Assembly (NCBI GenBank): GCA_018435055.1
Contig: JAHDOA010000046.1
Span: 1 to 64,000, forward strand
Source of the DNA: Pelotomaculum sp.
Lineage (GTDB): Bacteria; Bacillota; Desulfotomaculia; Desulfotomaculales; Pelotomaculaceae
DNA length: 64,000 nt
Reading direction: 5' to 3'
Shown: one piece after another, positions 8,591 to 19,165 of the stretch
Position numbering within the stretch: the stretch's first letter is position 1
Layout: each line of letters starts with the position of its first letter
Notes under the pieces: model-generated
What the model was told of the DNA's origin: nothing
Databases searched by the model: none
The model's input: the letters and a program-made list of their open reading frames with translations, nothing else
Made by a program: the position numbers and the translations under genes

Positions 8591-8658
8591 ATTGTTATTT
8601 TTGGACAGGATATGCTAGACTACTAATAGCTATCTAACCGGACGAGGTGTCTGTCATT

Positions 8659-11600
8659 TTGGCTAATTCGAAAACAAAACAGGCCAGAGAGCGTCTTTTA
8701 TCTGTTTTAAGCGGGCACGGGCCAGTTCCCCTGGAAGTAGCATACTCTCAATGTGACTGCGATTATGACTCCATAGCCGGCGCGCTTTCTTCGCTTATTG
8801 AAAAAGAGGAAATTTTAATCGGACGGCTGAAAACCAGGGCCGGGTGGATGCTCGGGGAAAAATCCGTTCTGCCTTCAAACGGCGCGGTTGCCTGGAGCAC
8901 TGACCGGGGGGTAATGCGCCGCGACCTCCCCAAGGTACTGAAGGTATTAAGAAAAAAATACGGCCGGGCGCAGGATTTAAGCAGCGAATATAAAGGCGGG
9001 CAGCCCGGGGGGCTTATAACCGCCGCAGACTCGGCAGAAGGCGGGAAGGCGCCGGAAAAGCGCGTAAAGTTAAAGATGGCCCGGGAGACGCTGGATGCCC
9101 TTACCCAACCTTTTTTTATACCCGCCGGGCTGGCCATAGATAACGATGCATTTGCTTATGCCGCAGACAGCCTGGCGGTTAAAGCAGAATTTGGGGGAAA
9201 AGAGTATTACTGCCTGCGCCGGCAATTTCCCGGTGAGGTCCTTGTCGAACAGCTTGGTGATATCTCTGACCGTTATTTTGCTCCGCCGCATGCGGCCAGC
9301 GCTCCCGCCTTTTTAAAAGAACACTCCCTGATTGAAAATGAGGCGGCCGGCGCGCTTGGTTTAGACCTGGACGCGCTAACATGCCTGGTTGAAACAGGAG
9401 AACTGAAGTATTTTTTGCTTGACGAAGGAAAGCGATTCTGGCGGTCTGATATTGAAAGTCTAAAAAGAGACAGGGACAGGATCCACAATATTGCAAGGAA
9501 GCATGAAAAGCTGAATTTAACTGAGGCTGCAACCCTGCTGGGTATCACCCCCGGCCAGGTCGAACGGCTGGTTAAAGAAGGAAGGCTCGCCCCTGTCCTA
9601 TATGAGATAATCAACAGCCGTGCTCCAGTGAACCTGTTCAGGCGCGGTGATTTAGAACGACTGCGCAGCTCTATTCAGGTTATTGTATCCGGATGGGACG
9701 CCGGTACAGGACCGGTCCCGGCTGTTGACCGGGGGCCGGTTGAACGGACTAAAAAAAGACCCCTGCGCCGGCAGGAAACAGCAACCCCGCCGGATGGCAT
9801 ACTGACCCTGGATGATTTTCAGATCGAGGCGGCGGAGGCCCTGCGTGAGGGTCTTTCCGTACTTGTCTCGGCCCCCACCGGAAACGGTAAAACCCTGGTG
9901 GCGGAGATGCTGGCCAGGGACGTGATGTCGCAGGGACTGGGGATGATCTACACCTCACCTTTAAAAGCCCTCTCAAACCAAAAATACAGGGATTTCAAGG
10001 CACTGTTCGGAGATGACTCAGTAGGTCTGGTGACCGGAGACATCAGCATCAATCCGGCAGCGCCGATGCTGATTATGACCACAGAAATATTCAGAAATTG
10101 GTGTCTCAGTGAACCGCAGCAATTAGAAAAAACCTCCTACGTGGTTTTTGACGAAATCCATTACCTGGACGACGCGGAACGCGGTACCACCTGGGAGGAA
10201 AGTATATTATTCGCCCCTCCCCATATTAAAATTTTAGGGCTTTCTGCCACAGTGCCCAATGTAGATGAAATGGCCGACTGGATTAGTTCTGTCCGCGGCG
10301 GCAATGTTGTTGTCATACTGGAGAAGAGAAGGATCGTACCCCTGGCGGTCCGCTGGCTGTTACCCAGCGGGCGCATTGTTTCGGAAAGAGAAGCCCGCGG
10401 GAAAATCGGGGACCTGGCTGAATATTCCAAGGCCTTACGCAACGGGAGATATTGGAATGGTACCAATAAGACCGCAGATCTGCCGGAATTGTCCTGCAGT
10501 GAAATAACCGGGCTGATCCAGGATAAACTTCCCGCCCTCTTTTTTGTTTTCAGCCGGGGAAGGACCGAAATCCTGGCGCAAGAACTGGGACATGACTGGG
10601 ATTTCCTTGACAACAAAGAAAAACGAATGGTGGGGAAACAGATCAGGGAAGCAGAGGCTGAATACCCCGGCGCCTTCAGCGGCCCGGGCTGGCGGAAACT
10701 GCGGCGGCTGCTGTACCAGGGCATCGGCTATCACCACGCCGGTCTATTGCCCCCGGTAAAATACCTTGTCGAACAACTCTATGCCAAACGGATGCTGTGG
10801 GTGGTATTCTGTACGGAAACTTTTGCCGCAGGTGTAAATTTTCCGGCTGCCAGCGCTGTTTTCGATTCTACCAGAAAATGGGATGGACGCGACTTTCGTA
10901 TCCTGCAAAACAGGGAATTCTTTCAAATAGCCGGTCGCGCCGGGCGGCGCGGGTTTGATCAGGTCGGCCATGTATTTGTCCGTATTGACAGCCGCTTTCC
11001 CGAACAAACAGGTTTTTTCAGGGAAAAGGAAGTAGAGCCGGTAACCGGCAGACTGACTATTTCTCCCAATACTGTGCTGAGCCTGCTGTGTTATAAAACT
11101 GATGATGAAATAAAACATTTCTTAAATGGAAATTTCAGAATGCACCAGCTTAAAAAAAGAAAGGATAGCCTTGAGCTGGAAATAAAAATAGTGACAGAAA
11201 AGGTTTCAGAGCTGTCAGTCTGCCCGGATTGCCAGACCCTGGCCTGCCCTCTGGAGCGGTTGAAAGCCCGCAGGCAGCTGAAACGGCTTCGCTGTAAAGG
11301 CAGAACCAGAGAAAAGGATCTTCTTCAGAAAAAATTGTCTTCTTTTGTTCCAAAGAAATGCCGTGACACAGAAAAATGCCGCATCACGTCCGAGAAGCTA
11401 AAACAATCACAGACTTTTTTACACCTGCTCAAACAGGAATACAAGGCAGTTACAGAAAACGCCAACTCGATTTTTAATGAGTTTAAAGAAGTCCGTAACC
11501 TCCTGGAAGAGCTTGGCTACATAAAGGAACGCGAATTTTACCCGCGGGGCATATTTGCGCTGGAACTGCACGTGCAGGAAATATTGGTAACTGAACTGGC

Positions 11601-12009
11601 TTTTTCAGGTTTGCTGGAAGACGCCGATCCGGCTGAGGTTGCCGCTGTCATAGCCGGGGTGGAATATATACCGGGCAGGAACACACATATGGCCGGGTTG
11701 GACCTGCCCGCGCTGCATGAAACCTCTTTAATCAGGCGCAACCTGCTGAAGATGGGCGTGCCCGAGAGGTTCTGCATCTGGTCCGCCCTGCCCGGCGCGC
11801 TGGCCTATGCCTGGTTTAACGGCGCCAGCTTTAATGATCTTCTGGAAATGTCTTCACTCCAGCCGGGCGATATATTCTCGCTCTTCAGAAGGGAGATAGA
11901 CCTGCTGCGCCAGGTAGAGCGCGCGGCGGCGGGCAACCCCGGCCTGGTTGAAAGATTGCAGGCTGTAAGGAGCCGTCTGGATCGCGACGAGGTCGCCCTG
12001 AATTTTTAA
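8659..12009 (+). CDS. Ski2-like DExH-box RNA helicase with N-terminal winged-helix and excisionase-like repeats
   Basis: About 1116 residues. Helicase motifs: I (APTGNGKT, about residue 404), Ia (TSPLKALSNQK), II (DEIH, about 497), III (LSATVPN), then VI (QIAGRAGRRG, about 755). This order and GRAGRRG place it with the Ski2/Mtr4 group, which unwinds RNA for decay or quality control. After the core come CPDC and CPL cysteines (about 854) and a basic coiled segment, then a DSHCT-like helical end. The first 370 residues hold a winged-helix-like part and two MerR/excisionase-like helix-turn-helix segments (about 225-270 and 280-330). The TTG start at 8659 is chosen for its spacing to GACGAGGTG; a GTG at 8647 would add four residues. 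It appears monocistronic. Confidence 0.85.
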   Translation: MANSKTKQARERLLSVLSGHGPVPLEVAYSQCDCDYDSIAGALSSLIEKEEILIGRLKTRAGWMLGEKSVLPSNGAVAWSTDRGVMRRDLPKVLKVLRKKYGRAQDLSSEYKGGQPGGLITAADSAEGGKAPEKRVKLKMARETLDALTQPFFIPAGLAIDNDAFAYAADSLAVKAEFGGKEYYCLRRQFPGEVLVEQLGDISDRYFAPPHAASAPAFLKEHSLIENEAAGALGLDLDALTCLVETGELKYFLLDEGKRFWRSDIESLKRDRDRIHNIARKHEKLNLTEAATLLGITPGQVERLVKEGRLAPVLYEIINSRAPVNLFRRGDLERLRSSIQVIVSGWDAGTGPVPAVDRGPVERTKKRPLRRQETATPPDGILTLDDFQIEAAEALREGLSVLVSAPTGNGKTLVAEMLARDVMSQGLGMIYTSPLKALSNQKYRDFKALFGDDSVGLVTGDISINPAAPMLIMTTEIFRNWCLSEPQQLEKTSYVVFDEIHYLDDAERGTTWEESILFAPPHIKILGLSATVPNVDEMADWISSVRGGNVVVILEKRRIVPLAVRWLLPSGRIVSEREARGKIGDLAEYSKALRNGRYWNGTNKTADLPELSCSEITGLIQDKLPALFFVFSRGRTEILAQELGHDWDFLDNKEKRMVGKQIREAEAEYPGAFSGPGWRKLRRLLYQGIGYHHAGLLPPVKYLVEQLYAKRMLWVVFCTETFAAGVNFPAASAVFDSTRKWDGRDFRILQNREFFQIAGRAGRRGFDQVGHVFVRIDSRFPEQTGFFREKEVEPVTGRLTISPNTVLSLLCYKTDDEIKHFLNGNFRMHQLKKRKDSLELEIKIVTEKVSELSVCPDCQTLACPLERLKARRQLKRLRCKGRTREKDLLQKKLSSFVPKKCRDTEKCRITSEKLKQSQTFLHLLKQEYKAVTENANSIFNEFKEVRNLLEELGYIKEREFYPRGIFALELHVQEILVTELAFSGLLEDADPAEVAAVIAGVEYIPGRNTHMAGLDLPALHETSLIRRNLLKMGVPERFCIWSALPGALAYAWFNGASFNDLLEMSSLQPGDIFSLFRREIDLLRQVERAAAGNPGLVERLQAVRSRLDRDEVALNF

Positions 12010-12292
12010 ACAACGGGAACATTAATTGAGTCGTGGGACGTAAGTCGTGAGTCGTGAGTATACACTGTATTACTTTAGAAGCTTTTATTATAACCCATAA
12101 TGATATCTTGCATTCTCACGTCTCACGTCTCATTTCTCACGTCTCAAACGGTGTGTCCCCATTCCTTACAATCGGGGACATTCCTCAGCATTCAGGAATG
12201 CCTGTGAGAGAGGTGTGTCCCCATTCCGCTGACATAGTATGTTTTGTTACGATACGAGTGTGCTGACATATTAAAAAAGAAGTGAAGTGGAC
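12010..12292. repeat. Two-armed 7-mer repeat element followed by GTGTGTCCCC repeats
   Basis: No gene. From 12027 to 12147 there are two arms of imperfect 7-mers: left arm CGTGGGA, CGTAAGT, CGTGAGT, CGTGAGT; right arm ATTCTCA, CGTCTCA, CGTCTCA, TTTCTCA, CGTCTCA. The arms are inverted relative to each other around an AT-rich core of about 50 bases. Next, GTGTGTCCCCATTCC occurs twice in direct orientation (12151-12165 and 12213-12227), with CGGGGACATTCC between as a partial inverted copy. These look like REP-type intergenic repeats. Confidence 0.7.
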
Positions 12293-13357
12293 ATGAAAAA
12301 TTCGATCTGGGTCTACCGCCTGTTCGACGTAGCAGAGGAAATCGACCTGGAGCAGGTTGAGAAGCTCCTGGCCGACGGGCACCAGGCCGCAAGGATGCGC
12401 CTCTCGCGGATCAGGCCGAAATCGATACAATTCAAGAACCCGCCGGTGGCAGTGGAACTCGGTGAATGCCAGGTGGTGATCGGCCGCCGGAATATAAACG
12501 CGTCCTTTACCGGCAAGATTTATGACCTGGGTGTGATAGGGATAATTATGCGCATTCCGCTCAGGGAAGGCGCGAGCTACGAAGAAGTCTTGGACCTGGC
12601 GGTCGATCTTTACAATGACGAAAAGATGGAATCCGTTTTTGTCAGCATGCTTGACACAACCCGCAAAACCCTCGCGGGCGCCCTGGTCAAGGAGGATTAT
12701 AACGGCTTTATTGAAGACTTTACAGTTTACTACTTCCAGGACTGGGAGCAAAGCTGGGACCCCGTCCCCCTTTTGCTTGCCGAACGCGAACCCCTCAGTG
12801 AACAGGCACGCCGCGAGACCCTGCGCAACTCCTTTTCCTACGGCAAAGACGACCTTACTATCATAACCTGGGACTCCGCCCTTGTTTACGACTCCACCGG
12901 CAGCAACGATATACCCGACCTGCTTGAATTCGCCAACTCCCAGCTCCTGGAGCTGCGCTATTACGACAACCTCCTGACCGGTGAAATGGGGAAAATGTAC
13001 GACGCCATAGAGGAGGCGGAAAATGCTTCCAGCATCAGGCGCCTGGGCCGCTACAGGCGGATTATGAACCAGCTGATGGAGCTGATCGCGGATATTACTG
13101 AGATCACGGAGCGGATTGACAATTCGCTCAAGGTAACCGAGGATGTGTTTTACGCCCGCATCTATGGGACTGCTTTGTCAATTTTTCGCACCAAGGCCTG
13201 GGAGGAGAGCATTAACAGAAAAATATCTATTATAAACCAGAGCTACACCATGCTGAGCAACCGCATCATCAACCAGCGTTCAGAACTCCTGGAACTAACA
13301 ATTATTATTTTAATCGCGCTGGAAGTGGTCCTCGGCCTGCTGGGAGTAATGAAGTAA
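12293..13357 (+). CDS. DUF155 (RMD1/YagE) family protein with C-terminal membrane anchor
   Basis: About 354 residues. The central region (VYDLGVIGI-type strands, then DDLTIITWDSALVYD near 190-205) is the DUF155 pattern shared with yeast RMD1 and human RMND1, which are mitochondrial proteins tied to translation or membrane anchoring. A long helical stretch follows and the last 25 residues form one hydrophobic span with a short cytoplasmic tail. The bacterial role is unknown. ATG 12293 is preferred; GTG 12287 is two codons upstream and in frame. Its end is one base from the end of the convergent methyltransferase gene. Confidence 0.72.
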   Translation: MKNSIWVYRLFDVAEEIDLEQVEKLLADGHQAARMRLSRIRPKSIQFKNPPVAVELGECQVVIGRRNINASFTGKIYDLGVIGIIMRIPLREGASYEEVLDLAVDLYNDEKMESVFVSMLDTTRKTLAGALVKEDYNGFIEDFTVYYFQDWEQSWDPVPLLLAEREPLSEQARRETLRNSFSYGKDDLTIITWDSALVYDSTGSNDIPDLLEFANSQLLELRYYDNLLTGEMGKMYDAIEEAENASSIRRLGRYRRIMNQLMELIADITEITERIDNSLKVTEDVFYARIYGTALSIFRTKAWEESINRKISIINQSYTMLSNRIINQRSELLELTIIILIALEVVLGLLGVMK

Positions 13358-13358
13358 A

Positions 13359-13991
13359 CTATTCGTCACCGTTTTTATCTGTCAATTCGGTTTCAGAAGA
13401 CTTGCGAAAACTAGGTATCAGGAACGGCACTTTCCGCCTGTATTCCCTGTAAGAATCCCCAAATCGAATTTCCAACTCGCGTTCCTCAAAGTATTTTAAG
13501 AAGAAAACATGTACAGGAATAAGCACTATCAGCGACCATAATATAAAGAACGTCGAGCCTCCCAATAAACTCAGCCCTATGCAAATTAAATAAAAACCGA
13601 GAGACATAGGGTTCCTGGTGCGCTTATATATATCCTTCGCAGCCAATTTTTTCGTAAGCTCAAAAGCAAGCAGCCCTTCCCCGCGATCCAGCAGAACAAC
13701 GATGGATATTACAAAAAAAACAACCCCAACCAGCATTACAACCGCACCTGTTACCAGTGAAATCATTGAAAACGGCAGGGGTGGCATACCCAGCAGCTCA
13801 TCGTATTCAGTAAGAATGGTTAATCCAGTTCCTATGGGAATTACCCAGGTAATAATCATAATGAAATGCATAATTCTAGTAGTTATCTCAGCGGTTTTCT
13901 TTGAAGGGTGACGCTTGAGCCAGATGCCAAGGGCAAATGAGCTGACGACAAAGACCACACATCCAATCGCCTGCAGGTAGATTAGAACCAT
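13359..13991 (-). CDS. Isoprenylcysteine/phospholipid methyltransferase-like membrane protein (ICMT/PEMT family)
   Basis: About 210 residues with four to five membrane spans. The C-terminal part carries the family pattern: YKRTRNPMSLGFYL (SAM-binding RxP-type motif, about residue 130), then FEERELEIRFGDSYREYRRKVP. Bacterial members methylate small lipid or thiol substrates, mostly unproven. The start is set at the ATG after GGAG at 13991; the upstream in-frame ATG at 14012 has no binding site of its own and itself encodes part of an AAGGGGG. Confidence 0.75.
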   Translation of the reverse strand: MVLIYLQAIGCVVFVVSSFALGIWLKRHPSKKTAEITTRIMHFIMIITWVIPIGTGLTILTEYDELLGMPPLPFSMISLVTGAVVMLVGVVFFVISIVVLLDRGEGLLAFELTKKLAAKDIYKRTRNPMSLGFYLICIGLSLLGGSTFFILWSLIVLIPVHVFFLKYFEERELEIRFGDSYREYRRKVPFLIPSFRKSSETELTDKNGDE

Positions 13992-14224: not shown

Positions 14225-15196
14225 TTAAATTACCTGTCCGGTGAAAGCGCCGCATGTAATCCTGCATTTCCCGCCGAAAATCTGGCTATAACGTTCGCAG
14301 GCGCGCTTGTTGGGATTTATGACAATAATTTCCCTGTCCTTATCCACCGTGTTTAACGACCTTTTTATGGTGGCGATAATCGAAGTGTCGGCGGGGTCCA
14401 GCGAATAGCCTATGATCACCAGGCGGCCGGCCTGGCTTACGGCCCCCCCCGCGCTGTCCCAGACATTCTGCAGCCTGCTTATTTCATAAGATTTATACAG
14501 GGTGGGCGCGATAATAACGGCCTGGGAGTTCTCGCCCCCGCAGTTTAAGCAGGAGATGGCGTTGTTTTCTTTAAACAGGAAATGCGCTACTTTTTCCTCG
14601 TGTTCTGAAATTTCGCCGCAGAGCGGACATAAGGACCAGTTCAGTGAACCATGCAGTTTGTAAAGGGGAACCTTTTCTCTCGACGCCAGATGGTCGCTGT
14701 GTTTACCGTAAAAACCGTATTCCGGGGTGTAACCAGCAGCCCGTATCGCCTTATCCAGGACAATATCGTAATTCATGGAGATAAAGGCCGGCAGTTCATC
14801 CTCTTTTTCTATCACCCCGGCAACAAAAGAATGGTGAATTCCCTGGTGCGGCGGCAGCGACCTGTCCAGGGTCATGCTGATCAGTTTTACCAGCGCCGTC
14901 TTCAAGTCATGCAGCCTGGGCCGGGAAAAGCGCCGCGAGAAAGCCTGGTTTTGCAGCAGGTACCAGTCCACGATATTAAATATTTCATCAATGCCCGGGT
15001 ACCTGTCCAGGTCCTCGCCGCAGCTTATTTTGGCGCCGTAACCGTAAAAATGTTCCAGGTACTCCCATACTATCTCCAGGTCCCGGTCATAGTCCTCCTC
15101 TTTAAAATAGCGGTAAGCCACACGCAGGAAGTTGCGCACAACAGGCGCGCCTTCTGCGGCGGACGCACCCGCGCCGAATATATAAACTGTTTTCAT
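14225..15196 (-). CDS. SIR2-like domain protein with zinc-binding cysteines
   Basis: 323 residues. The N-terminus has the NAD-type loop FGAGAS (residues 7-12). A long helical insert follows, then ISMNYD (140-144), the LHGSLNW motif (181-187) typical of SIR2-like (SIR2_2) proteins, a four-cysteine zinc site (C190, C193, C216, C219) and IGYSLDPAD (262-270). True sirtuins remove acetyl groups from lysine using NAD; many stand-alone SIR2-like proteins in bacteria instead destroy NAD during phage defence. Which applies is not decidable here. It begins 4 bases after the end of the small ORF at 15201 and is divergent from the dynamin-like gene. Confidence 0.75.
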   Translation of the reverse strand: MKTVYIFGAGASAAEGAPVVRNFLRVAYRYFKEEDYDRDLEIVWEYLEHFYGYGAKISCGEDLDRYPGIDEIFNIVDWYLLQNQAFSRRFSRPRLHDLKTALVKLISMTLDRSLPPHQGIHHSFVAGVIEKEDELPAFISMNYDIVLDKAIRAAGYTPEYGFYGKHSDHLASREKVPLYKLHGSLNWSLCPLCGEISEHEEKVAHFLFKENNAISCLNCGGENSQAVIIAPTLYKSYEISRLQNVWDSAGGAVSQAGRLVIIGYSLDPADTSIIATIKRSLNTVDKDREIIVINPNKRACERYSQIFGGKCRITCGAFTGQVI

Positions 15197-15200
15197 TGAT

Positions 15201-15383
15201 CTAGTCTCCCAGGTAAGACTTCAGTTCACGGACAACTTCTTCCAGGGTGACCGCCCTGGCTTCACCCTCGGATATAGGCCGGCCGAAGGGCAGGGCTTCC
15301 TCTTTCCCCTGCTGCCGCGCTTTCTGCGGCAGTTCACTAATATTTTCAAACCATTTCCCAAACGTTATAACGATTCTACCCAA
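15201..15383 (-). CDS. Small hypothetical protein upstream of the SIR2-like gene
   Basis: 60 residues, TTG start, no strong binding site. The sequence is hydrophilic with an FGRPISEGEAR middle and a helical VVRELKSYLGD end. Its stop lies 4 bases before the SIR2-like start, so the two could be coupled. I do not recognise a family; it may be an antitoxin-like or regulatory partner, or not a gene at all. Confidence 0.4.
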   Translation of the reverse strand: MGRIVITFGKWFENISELPQKARQQGKEEALPFGRPISEGEARAVTLEEVVRELKSYLGD

Positions 15384-15459
15384 TCTGCCCGGATAATATC
15401 AAGTCATAAAAAAAGATGCCCGTTAATATATAAAATCGTAAGAAACATTTGCCATACGC

Positions 15460-15467
15460 GGAGGGGG
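15460..15467 (+). promoter_or_regulatory. Strong ribosome binding site deciding the dynamin-like start
   Basis: GGAGGGGG five bases before the ATG at 15473. It excludes the TTG eight codons upstream (15449) as the start. Confidence 0.7.
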
Positions 15468-15472
15468 TTCAT

Positions 15473-17872
15473 ATGCCTGATCTGGATCAATTCATCAACA
15501 GCCTCGAAGCCTTAAGGGAACTGACCGGGCAGGTTTTTAAGCCCCTGGTGGCGGTCCTGGGCCCCTTTAACTCGGGCAAATCGACACTTTTAAACAGCCT
15601 GCTTGATTTACCACTCAGCCCGGTAGGAATCATACCCACAACTTCCCGCCTGATATATTTTGACTACGGAAATTCCTTCAGGGCATCAGTATATAACCCG
15701 CCCAGAAAAAAAATGTTTTTGCAGCAGGCTGAACTGTACCCCTTTCTGGCCGGAGAGAAGGTTTACGGCGGCCGGGTTGAGATCGAGGCCCCGGCGCCTA
15801 TTTTAAAAAAATGCAGGCTTTTGGACACTCCCGGCATAGATTCCCCCGACATGGATTCACTAAATATCTCCGAACTGGCCGCCAAAAAAGCCGATAAGAT
15901 CATCTACCTTTTTCACCAGAGGGGAATAGATGAGAGCGACCGGCTATTTTTATATAAATTGGCTAAAATCTGGAAAACAAAAAACCTTGACGACATTTTT
16001 TTTTGGCTGAACTGTAACCTGGGCACAAGCGACGGCGCCTCACTGGAAACGACACGCGCAGCGCTCAGGGAAATCTTTTTGTCTCCAGTGAGGATTTACA
16101 CTATTAATACCCTGTTACGGGAAAACATAGAGACACTCCGCCTTTTTCTAGAGGTGCAACTGGCTAAAGAAAATTTCCGCCGGGCTGCCGGAGAACTGAG
16201 AAAAATAGACGCGGATCTGCCGCGCAAATTAAAAAAAATCGCCTCAATTAAAGATGAAGCGCTTTTCCTGGCCGAATTTTGGCATATCCAGCAAACTGCC
16301 CGGACAGTTTTGGAGGCCGGCCGGCTCATCCATACAGCGCCCTCTTTTGTTCGGGAAATGGATTACAGGCTGGCCTCGATGAGTTCACTTAACCTTACGG
16401 CAGCAGAAAAAAAAGCCGGCGGCGCAGCATACCGCCCCCGCCCGCAAACAATTAGAGAAAACCGGAAAATACTTGAGGGCATAATCAGGCAGCTTGTAAA
16501 CGATCCTGTGATTAAAGGTTATATAGACCGGCTGAAGCTCGCGCAGATCTCCGGTTCAATCGCATCTGAACGCTATACCGTGGTAGTTGCCGGCGGTTTT
16601 TCAACCGGCAAGTCAACCTTTATTAACGCTCTGTTAAAAGATGATCTCCTGCCTGCCGCTGACGGGCCGACAACATCCGTGATTACCAGAATAGCGCACG
16701 GCAGCGTTAAAAAAGCAACAATCCACACTCCCCTGCAAACAACCGTGCAGATTTATGAGCAGGTTGAAGACAAAGCAGTCTTGAACCGGGCCGCGCTGGA
16801 GGCGCTGGAAAGATGGATAACAGTAGACGGATCGAACTTATCCCTGCTGGAAGCGTTTATCGACGGGAATTTTGAGGTTGTTGACAGGCGGCAAATGGCG
16901 GGGCTGATCAAAAGGACCAGAGAGCTATTTGCCGCGGGCGCTTTTGCCAGGACTGCGCGCACGGCCCTGCCATCCATATACAGGCGTATACCTGTTAAAG
17001 CGCTGCAGGGCAGCCGGGCGCCGCAAATAATAAGGGTAACATGCCAAAATCCGGGCGCCAGGGAATACAACATCTCGGAACCGGCAGCCCTGCAGGCCTT
17101 CTGGAAGGCCATGGGACCAGACTGCGCGTTTAAAATCGGGGAGGTGGAAATTCAACATCCTTCAGAATTTCTAGAACTGGCGTCGCTTGTTGACACACCC
17201 GGCCTGGACTGGATCCACAGACACCACCATAAAGAAATATCGTCCAGCATAAAAAGCAGTGACGCCTGCCTGGTTTTTCTAAACGGCAAACACATTTTAA
17301 GCCGTATTGAAAAGGATAATTTTGCGTCCTTGTTCCAGCTTAAAGATATAGCGCAGGCCGGAAAAAAAGAGTTGCCAAAAGACAATGAAAAAATATTTTA
17401 TGTGATCAGTTTTGCTGATACCCTCACCCCGCCGCAGCGGGAGGCAGTTTACAACTATGTCAGGGGTTTCCTGGAAAAATCAACCTTCCCCAAAATATTC
17501 ATGATCTCCGGCCTGAAAGGTCTCACCGGCAGTGAAAGCGGGATTAGCAGGCTTTTAAAAACCCTGGAAGAGTCCGTCTTGAAATATCGCGGTAGAGAGT
17601 TTTGCCTAAACAGGTTAAACGAAATATATTACATTCTTGAAGCGGCTACTCAAAAGATAAACAGTGCGCTCCACTCAGGGCAGCCGGCTCATGACGAGAA
17701 AAAAACGCTGCGCGCCGCGCTGCGGAACTTAAGGGAATACAAATCACAGATTAAAGGCGTCCGGAACACAATTTTTGATACCGGGAGGTTTGAAATGAGT
17801 GGAAAACGCGAGACATTTAGACGAACGGCTGAAGAGGATTATACGCGAAGTCAGCATAAGGACAGGCGGTGA
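15473..17872 (+). CDS. Dynamin-like protein with two tandem GTPase domains
   Basis: About 799 residues in one frame. Two dynamin-type GTPase heads: the first has GPFNSGKST (about 30-38), a TTS switch and DTPGID (about 118); the second has GGFSTGKST (about 374-382), a TTS switch and DTPGLD (about 574). Helical segments follow each head, as in bacterial dynamins such as DynA and LeoA, which remodel membranes; some protect against phage. Two heads in one chain recall DynA of Bacillus. No membrane span is evident. The last 25 residues (after about 17795) are arginine-rich and poor, while a good helical sequence continues in another frame (17799-17993), so the end is probably shifted. It opens an operon with two small genes. 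Confidence 0.85.
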   Translation: MPDLDQFINSLEALRELTGQVFKPLVAVLGPFNSGKSTLLNSLLDLPLSPVGIIPTTSRLIYFDYGNSFRASVYNPPRKKMFLQQAELYPFLAGEKVYGGRVEIEAPAPILKKCRLLDTPGIDSPDMDSLNISELAAKKADKIIYLFHQRGIDESDRLFLYKLAKIWKTKNLDDIFFWLNCNLGTSDGASLETTRAALREIFLSPVRIYTINTLLRENIETLRLFLEVQLAKENFRRAAGELRKIDADLPRKLKKIASIKDEALFLAEFWHIQQTARTVLEAGRLIHTAPSFVREMDYRLASMSSLNLTAAEKKAGGAAYRPRPQTIRENRKILEGIIRQLVNDPVIKGYIDRLKLAQISGSIASERYTVVVAGGFSTGKSTFINALLKDDLLPAADGPTTSVITRIAHGSVKKATIHTPLQTTVQIYEQVEDKAVLNRAALEALERWITVDGSNLSLLEAFIDGNFEVVDRRQMAGLIKRTRELFAAGAFARTARTALPSIYRRIPVKALQGSRAPQIIRVTCQNPGAREYNISEPAALQAFWKAMGPDCAFKIGEVEIQHPSEFLELASLVDTPGLDWIHRHHHKEISSSIKSSDACLVFLNGKHILSRIEKDNFASLFQLKDIAQAGKKELPKDNEKIFYVISFADTLTPPQREAVYNYVRGFLEKSTFPKIFMISGLKGLTGSESGISRLLKTLEESVLKYRGREFCLNRLNEIYYILEAATQKINSALHSGQPAHDEKKTLRAALRNLREYKSQIKGVRNTIFDTGRFEMSGKRETFRRTAEEDYTRSQHKDRR

Positions 17873-17993
17873 AATTAATAAAACCCTGCTGCATGATTTT
17901 GCGCACAGCACCCGGGTCGTCCTGGAAGAACATTGCCGGCAGGAAACCACCAGGTTCCTGGCGCTGTTTAAAAACGCTGTTGACAAAATCTAA
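17799..17993 (+). CDS. Out-of-frame C-terminal extension of the dynamin-like protein, or a separate 64-residue protein
   Basis: A 64-codon frame, shifted +1 relative to the dynamin-like gene and overlapping its last 74 bases. The product is a well-formed amphipathic helix (LDERLKRIIREV at its start, then HDFAHSTRVVLEE) ending AVDKI. It looks like the natural helical end of the GTPase, which would need a one-base shift near the GGAAAA at 17800-17805. Alternatively it starts at GTG 17799 with the GGGAGG at 17782-17787, giving a separate small protein translated by coupling. Confidence 0.5.
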   Translation: MENARHLDERLKRIIREVSIRTGGEINKTLLHDFAHSTRVVLEEHCRQETTRFLALFKNAVDKI

Positions 17994-18014
17994 TTTAAAA
18001 AAGGGGGTGTAGCT

Positions 18015-18314
18015 TTGGAACAAAAAAAGGAACGGGTTGTGGTTGAAAAAACCGGGGACGAGTTTATGCAGAAAATGATTGGTGATATTCTTCTGGGACT
18101 AAAAGCAAAAATGGTCCAGCCTGTCATGGACGGAAACGCTAAAATAGACTCCCGCCTGGAAGAATTAGCGGCCGGCAACCTGGCGCAGCACGCTGAAATA
18201 ATAAAACAGCTGGAAAAGCTGGAGGGCGATGTGCAAAAATTACCCCTGGTAATACTTACTGCTATTAGAGACGCCATCAACCAGGCCGGCGGAGGAAACC
18301 GGGATGGACTCTGA
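18015..18314 (+). CDS. Small coiled-coil protein of the dynamin-like operon
   Basis: 99 residues, TTG start behind AAGGGGGTG. Charged head, then a long helix with heptad character (KIDSRLEELAAGNLAQHAEI, about 46-65) and a second helix ending in a glycine-rich tail. No membrane span. It overlaps the next gene by 11 bases. I know no family for it; its place suggests it binds the dynamin-like protein or the membrane partner. Confidence 0.65.
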   Translation: MEQKKERVVVEKTGDEFMQKMIGDILLGLKAKMVQPVMDGNAKIDSRLEELAAGNLAQHAEIIKQLEKLEGDVQKLPLVILTAIRDAINQAGGGNRDGL

Positions 18315-18564
18315 AAAGCTGCGCACTCAATCTGAACTGGTCAGGTCCCTGGCATCAACTATACACAAAAAAATGATGGCGCCGTCCGCTGACAGGGCAG
18401 ATATAGTAAATAGGGAAATACAACAAATTAACCAGCGGCTGGCTGTACTGGAGAATGAACTAACCCAACTGTACGGCTCCTGCCGGACAACCCGGTTTTT
18501 AGCCTTTTCCCTGACGGGGTGCGCCGTCCTCCTATCCCTCGTATTATTTTATTTTGTGTCTTAA
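18304..18564 (+). CDS. Small tail-anchored coiled-coil membrane protein of the dynamin-like operon
   Basis: 86 residues. A helical cytoplasmic part with a coiled-coil stretch (INQRLAVLENELTQLY, about 43-58) is followed by one hydrophobic span (about 65-85) at the extreme C-terminus, so it is a tail-anchored protein. ATG 18304 follows GGAGGAAA and overlaps the upstream gene by 11 bases. It could be the membrane dock for the soluble dynamin-like GTPase. No family recognised. Confidence 0.68.
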   Translation: MDSEKLRTQSELVRSLASTIHKKMMAPSADRADIVNREIQQINQRLAVLENELTQLYGSCRTTRFLAFSLTGCAVLLSLVLFYFVS

Positions 18565-18587: not shown

Positions 18588-18648
18588 AAGGTTGCCGGTG
18601 TATTTTGCCGGCAACCTGAAACGGCGCCCTGCGCCGTTTTTTTATCCG
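18588..18648. terminator. Double stem-loop between convergent genes
   Basis: First stem GGTTGCCGG/CCGGCAACC, then AAACGGCG/CGCCGTTT followed by a T run. The second is a standard rho-independent terminator for the dynamin-like operon. The T run reaches into the last codons of the convergent gene ending at 18642. Confidence 0.8.
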
Positions 18649-18950
18649 TCTTTTTTTTCGCGGTCATTCTTCATCATGGCGTAAACAAAGGCGCTTGCTC
18701 CGGAAATAATCAGGACCTTGACGATAAAACCTATTGTCTCCGCCTTAAACCTTGCTTTTTCTTCCTTTAATTTTACTGCGGGATCTGATTTTAAATCTAT
18801 GTAGGCGCCCTTAGTTTCAAACAGGACCAGCTGCTTTTCCAGTTTTGCCATTCTTTCTTCATGTTTTGATATGCCGCTCATAAAACCTATAACCTGAATG
18901 GCCAGGAAAGCCAGGGCAAATAAAATTAGAAGCGTACGAGGGTTATTCAC
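18642..18950 (-). CDS. Small two-span membrane protein
   Basis: About 102 residues, GTG start eight bases after AAAGGAG. Two hydrophobic segments (about residues 5-22 and 72-92) flank a charged helical loop with KHEERMAKLEKQL. The last residues are basic and charged. It is convergent with the dynamin-like operon and shares its terminator region. No family recognised. Confidence 0.6.
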   Translation of the reverse strand: MNNPRTLLILFALAFLAIQVIGFMSGISKHEERMAKLEKQLVLFETKGAYIDLKSDPAVKLKEEKARFKAETIGFIVKVLIISGASAFVYAMMKNDREKKDG

Positions 18951-19165
18951 CAAACATTCTCCTTTTTTAGTGTTATTCCCCTTTGGCAAAAAACTGCGCC
19001 GGCTTTAATCAATTTAGGTTTGCATAAATCCAACTTATTCTTTATAATACTGTCGCAAATTATCAATAAAAATAGTAAGATTATTTAACTCTAATACAAA
19101 TTATAAACCACATCCAGGCATAACACAATCTGTAAGCATTTTTTCATATAATAACAATTTCAATA

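Follow-up and report, generated by a model that had tools for sequence, protein, structure and literature searches.

A four-gene operon combining a tandem dynamin-like GTPase with three small helical proteins, one of them tail-anchored, in Desulfotomaculales

In a 3.28-Mb genome of a Pelotomaculum-like family, a two-headed dynamin-like GTPase is encoded together with three small proteins, here called X, A, and B, the last of which ends in a C-terminal membrane span. Across the order, the dynamin, X, and A genes were shown to be kept and lost as one unit, and the association of the dynamin with small-protein partners was shown to be obligate. This joint retention or loss of the four genes suggests a bacterial membrane machine that has not been described before and that comes with its own recruitment components. 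On the best reading, to which we give a probability of about 0.5, the operon would specify a chromosomal membrane-remodeling GTPase whose membrane anchor, B, and helical assembly components, X and A, are supplied in trans. No described set of such a form was found in the open-licence literature, in keeping with the claim of novelty made in the original prediction, and no joint mention of Pelotomaculum and a dynamin-like protein was found there; Desulfotomaculum was mentioned together with such a protein in one paper, listed as a review on spore formation.

The genes were analyzed within a stretch of 64,000 nucleotides of one contig (the window), where they lie on one strand in the order dynamin-X-A-B between a single conserved promoter-like element and a single terminator (Table 1). 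The original prediction, made from the sequence, had described a three-gene system; the genes do form one system, as their co-conservation indicates, but their number is four, since X, which had been missed, sits between the dynamin gene and A. The 142 bases that separate the dynamin stop codon from the start of A accommodate gene X and do not constitute a gap. The tight packing and single terminator that had been noted were both borne out, with A and B overlapping by 11 nt and with B followed by a pair of stacked hairpins and a run of U residues.

Table 1. Features of the operon and their positions in the window
Feature	Position	Strand	Basis
Promoter-like element GTCATAA-N14-TAATATATA	15403-15432	+	Fixed spacing at loci across the order
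Tandem dynamin-like GTPase, 799 aa	15473-17872 (ATG to stop)	+	Pfam, AlphaFold2, fold matches, hydropathy
X, 64-aa helical protein	17799-17993 (GTG to stop)	+	Conservation, co-occurrence, codon-position pattern
A, 99-aa soluble all-helical protein	18015-18314 (TTG start)	+	Profile searches, structure model
B, coiled-coil protein of 86 aa ending in a C-terminal span (tail anchor)	18304-18564 (ATG start)	+	Profile searches, hydropathy, PDB profiles
Membrane span of B, residues about 65-85	18496-18558	+	Sequence, hydropathy of 39 B sequences
Terminator, two stacked hairpins and T run, common to the convergent gene	18589-18640	+	-38.3 kcal/mol, z -4.9

Gene X was found by inspecting the region between the dynamin gene and A in relatives. 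An open reading frame of 64 to 65 residues with its own ribosome-binding site (GGGAGG) was present at all 23 loci of the window's family and also at 20/20 loci from other families. Within the family, identity to the window copy ranged from 48 to 95%, X being the best conserved of the small proteins, and substitutions fell mostly at third codon positions, the stretch overlapping the dynamin gene included. This overlap with the 3' end of the dynamin gene is 74 nt long in the window, whereas X starts 1 to 232 nt after the dynamin gene in most other members of the family; the larger distance in genome G010 reflects only the frame-shifted dynamin of that genome. Because X lies downstream of the dynamin gene in most family members, it is a separate gene and not a dynamin tail. 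The possibility that X is a dynamin C terminus reached via a frame shift was ruled out by its own ribosome-binding site and by its downstream position elsewhere. X is short and overlapping and hence is easily overlooked by eye.

Co-occurrence was determined in 101 genomes of the order (Desulfotomaculales-type) that were at least 80% complete, with the dynamin counted as present at an E value below 1e-20. The dynamin, X, and A occurred in the identical 53 genomes, and all three were absent from the remaining 48; their coordinates were adjacent in every carrier except G037, in which they are split over two contigs. At all completeness levels, A was found in 57/113 genomes of the order. The same order and strand, dynamin-X-A-B, were seen at each of the 43 loci read (23 from the family and 20 from other families), and B, for which the genome-wide search covered the window's family, adjoined dynamin, X, and A at every complete locus read. 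In the family search, the dynamin was present in 24/25 genomes, with G015 (64% complete) counted on the basis of short, weak matches to other dynamins alone, and A and B were present in 23/25 genomes, the exceptions being G015 and G019 (85% complete). A control gene, c11, occurred in a different set of genomes (48/101); its unrelated distribution indicates that the co-occurrence of the module does not reflect shared ancestry alone, as equal distributions are not automatic. The original prediction had held that co-conservation would support such a system and that small proteins occurring without the GTPase would speak against it. Presence together in 53/53 genomes, absence together in 48/48, a constant gene order, and joint loss in congeners all agree with the former, and the latter was not seen, order-wide, for either A or X. 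A sample of 398 genomes of the phylum yielded no second member from outside the order: dynamin scores were at least 885 bits within the order and at most 85 bits outside it, and X matched only members of this order, apart from a single weak match within a 599-aa frame. Inspection of 20 other dynamin loci of Bacillota showed no comparable tail-anchored partner, the one automatic flag being an implausible open reading frame.

Within one genus, the cassette was present in G086 and absent from G087 and G089. Alignment of G087 (L211) with G086 (L218) showed bases 10580 to 13599 (3,020 bp) to be missing, with 19 bp in their place; in G089 (L212), bases 10490 to 13599 of L218 (3,110 bp) were missing, with 11 bp in their place, and the flanks of the deletions were about 90 to 93% identical to G086. 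The deleted piece begins shortly before the promoter element, takes in this element and the dynamin, X, and A genes, and ends in the middle of B, removing its 5' part; in G087, the 3' stump of B is retained. Congeners with and without the cassette thus constitute natural knock-outs. In the dynamin tree and in the tree of X and A combined, every family was monophyletic, and no copies were found on viral contigs, phages, or plasmids. The module is vertically inherited, single copy, and chromosomal.

The 99-residue and 86-residue proteins of the original prediction were both recovered. A was predicted as one continuous helix over residues 2 to 93 (pLDDT of 86) and has conserved motifs at its N terminus (K.[VIL].P[VL]) and C terminus (P-L-V-I-L-.-A-.-R-D-A-I). 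In B, a coiled coil, which gave matches in a PDB profile search, is followed by a single C-terminal membrane span, the architecture of a tail-anchored adaptor; the hydrophobic stretch ended 0 to 5 residues before the C terminus in 39/39 B sequences measured. PDB profile searches with X and A gave nothing informative. None of the three small proteins had a confident match, or any GTPase match, in Pfam, NCBIfam, or PADLOC, and a search of Rfam gave no match. A and B share a motif composed of a helix, a lysine, a hydrophobic pair, a proline, and then an acidic residue or asparagine. Profiles of A and B cross-hit at 5 of 20 loci outside the family, with few other open reading frames scoring, and the two were weakly similar by hhalign (P = 2e-4; probability, 45%), a similarity that is inflated by coiled-coil bias. 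These comparisons suggest, but do not prove, that A is a soluble paralogue of B; no relationship between X and A was found by profile comparison. The length of the spacer in B and the length of the dynamin after its last DTPG motif were correlated only suggestively (Spearman, 0.71; P = 0.07; seven families).

The largest protein of the operon had been predicted to carry two dynamin-type heads and no membrane span, and both features were seen: Dynamin_N matched it twice (Pfam; whole-protein E value, 1.6e-35), and hydropathy revealed no membrane segment (best 19-residue mean, 1.17). The P-loop, switch threonine, and DxxG of the dynamin superfamily were present in the Dynamin_N GTPase domain, the conserved motifs being GxxNSGKST, PTT, and DTPG in head 1 and GFSxGKSTF, PTT, and DTPG in head 2. 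At the G4 position, where a motif of the (N/T)KxD type would be expected, head 2 has NFxD and head 1 has an invariant N-x-N....DG; since head 1 is without the normal N/TKxD motif, it may hydrolyze GTP abnormally. In the AlphaFold2 model (pLDDT, 79.6; pTM, 0.66), two G domains are each followed by a helical neck (residues 216 to 342 and 690 to 771), with no further trunk or paddle. The nearest folds by Foldseek were the SynDLP minimal GTPase domain, truncated mitofusin-1 (mini-mitofusin-1), BDLP, and the Cj-DLP pair, and sequence profile searches agreed with these head-and-neck matches. The best NCBIfam match was the DynA model (E value, 4e-25); the full equivalog score of this model (NF052648) was not reached, at 87.9 bits versus a cut-off of 1600 bits, and the protein has 799 aa versus the approximately 1,190 aa expected for the DynA type. 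In a tree resolved for head 2 only, head 2 grouped with the DynA-type head 2 of long tandem Bacillota dynamins (support, 0.99). By these comparisons, the two-headed dynamin is DynA-like, with an ancestry probably common with that of the DynA heads. The tail of the dynamin in the window and in its four nearest relatives extends past the point at which most other copies stop. In the complete genome G010 (L104; C1:2140127-2142429), the dynamin gene is broken and X, A, and B are intact. The break falls inside head 2; therefore, gene fission was ruled out, and the break reads as a frame shift, whether through recent decay, sequencing error, or a programmed frameshift.

Bacterial dynamins have been described mostly as pairs or fused pairs, with some occurring alone (PMC4159319 among sources). 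Like DynA of Bacillus subtilis, the module dynamin has two dynamin heads in one chain, but it is shorter (about 800 aa in the window's family versus about 1,190 to 1,320 aa), has short necks only, and, unlike the DynA type, always has X, A, and B encoded beside it, three genes that were not present at the 20 other Bacillota dynamin loci. Its head-and-neck fold resembles those of Cj-DLP1/DLP2 of Campylobacter, Nostoc BDLP, SynDLP, and mitofusin, whereas in these proteins a trunk and paddle, or else membrane segments, are part of the same chain. The LeoABC system of ETEC and the LeoA relatives of Helicobacter are similar in forming a multigene dynamin operon and at the level of the heads, although the LeoA model (NF041922) gave only 16.9 bits versus a cut-off of 325. 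LeoB and LeoC each represent a portion of a second dynamin (PMC4159319), whereas X, A, and B are no fragments of a GTPase and a split second dynamin is absent from the module; moreover, the LeoABC and Cj-DLP operons are without tail-anchored coiled-coil partners. The one described dynamin-like GTPase with a nondynamin partner that was found in the open-licence literature is RdcA/RdcB, in which the soluble GTPase and the partner encoded with it bind to the membrane domain of a diguanylate cyclase (PMC6510439). In the module, too, a dynamin-like GTPase is encoded alongside non-GTPase partners, but RdcA has a single head and one large soluble partner and is not accompanied by a tail-anchored protein.

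In eukaryotes, Drp1 is a soluble dynamin and Mff is a tail-anchored coiled-coil adaptor. The likeness of the module to this pair is a works-like one only, a soluble dynamin with a tail-anchored coiled-coil protein as its putative adaptor; Mff is presented as a receptor in PMC5429825. In the mechanism that we propose, B would insert by its C-terminal span, leaving its coiled coil in the cytosol, and would recruit the dynamin to the cytoplasmic membrane, docking being inferred. A and X would bind the coiled coil of B as well as the dynamin's short helical necks, providing in trans the trunk or assembly part that other dynamins have in cis, and GTP-driven dimerization of the heads could then tether or bend the membrane. 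A more specific version, in which the machine is split such that the GTPase contributes heads and necks and the obligate X, A, and tail-anchored B give the trunk or assembly helices and the anchor, is put forward tentatively, as we consider it somewhat more likely to be wrong than right. In families f4, f6, and f18, the C-terminal helical part of the dynamin is longer and X, A, and B are still there; therefore, replacement of a trunk explains only part of the pattern. If the split machine were real, it would be a bacterial counterpart of Drp1-Mff adaptor recruitment that is private to Desulfotomaculales, and an adaptor-recruited bacterial dynamin could be rebuilt from four short genes.

The role of such a membrane-remodeling GTPase might be in membrane maintenance, repair, or a step related to division or sporulation; the vertical inheritance, single copy, and chromosomal location of the module make any of these more likely than defence. 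A dedicated sporulation machine, expressed from an alternative-sigma promoter during endospore formation and acting in septation, engulfment, or membrane fission, is the alternative to be taken most seriously, although we regard it as rather unlikely. The carriers of the module belong to a spore-forming, anaerobic lineage, and a Coat_F gene adjoins the operon at many loci of the family. The promoter-like element precedes the dynamin start at a fixed spacing at 32 of 41 loci across the order, its window copy being the only exact match in the whole genome, and its -35 is of the ATA type; we take it to resemble the promoters of sporulation sigma factors, with a clean match to none. In G017, one copy with two mismatches lies 44 bp ahead of a SpoIIGA-like gene, which is a lead only. 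Against this explanation, two-mismatch copies were no commoner than those of a reversed control in seven genomes, for which reason a regulon of the element was dropped, and 48 genomes of the same order, among them what is probably a spore-forming family, are without the module.

It is improbable that the GTPase signals instead of remodeling membranes, as E. coli RdcA/RdcB (YjdA/YjcZ) would suggest. That system provides a precedent for a dynamin-like GTPase acting with a co-encoded nondynamin partner on a membrane protein (PMC6510439), and the unusual G4 motif of head 1 would fit; however, RdcA is single-headed with a large partner (32.9 kDa), the heads of the module dynamin are DynA-like, and no conserved signaling enzyme adjoins the operon. 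Anti-phage defence, to which the original prediction had linked the genes, would have the dynamin act on membranes during infection, while sensing and anchoring would fall to the small proteins. B. subtilis DynA has been reported to act in this way, LeoABC is listed in PADLOC, and the PADLOC models matched the module (LeoA, E value of 1.2e-18; LeoBC, 4e-8), though weakly and in the head domains only; a SIR2-like gene (PADLOC Aga_SIR2) also lies divergently upstream in 12 loci of the family. The SIR2-like gene adjoins the operon only in the window's family, however, and housekeeping genes occupy the flanks. Neither a patchy or mobile distribution nor presence in defence islands, phages, or plasmids was found; the families are monophyletic, with one copy per genome at one location, and viral contigs carry none. 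The link to phage defence was therefore not upheld, and we consider this explanation quite improbable.

Several neighboring genes were also noted. The SIR2-like protein (14225-15196, minus strand) has CxxC pairs and weak similarity to PADLOC Aga_SIR2 (E value of about 1e-10). Between it and the operon lies a C-terminal remnant (15201-15383, minus strand) of c14, a 290-aa HTH_17 protein whose gene is complete in relatives such as L085 and L087, where it lies upstream of the dynamin gene in divergent orientation; c14 is a decaying gene in the window. As an operon regulator it was ruled out, since it adjoins the operon in some families only and the window has a remnant. Convergent with B and having the terminator region in common with it is a gene for a short protein with two hydrophobic stretches (18642-18989, minus strand), whose conservation is confined to 18 loci of the window's family. 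The c11 gene (12287-13357, plus strand) encodes a 356-aa protein with a hydrophobic C-terminal end and no Pfam match; it is widespread in the order, with 57 to 82% identity among nine aligned copies, and lies upstream of the dynamin gene on the same strand in four families. Its differing distribution ruled it out as a fifth component. Another gene without a Pfam match, c9 (230 to 270 aa), lies near the operon at L134, L136, L138, L141, L146, L147, L151, and L152, on the upstream side in two families and on the downstream side in a further two; it is absent from beside the operon in the window's family. Further upstream in the window, a large DEAD/DSHCT (SKI2-like) helicase with an HTH_17 domain is encoded (8647-12009, plus strand), and in some relatives (L091, L092, and L096) it is split into two genes.
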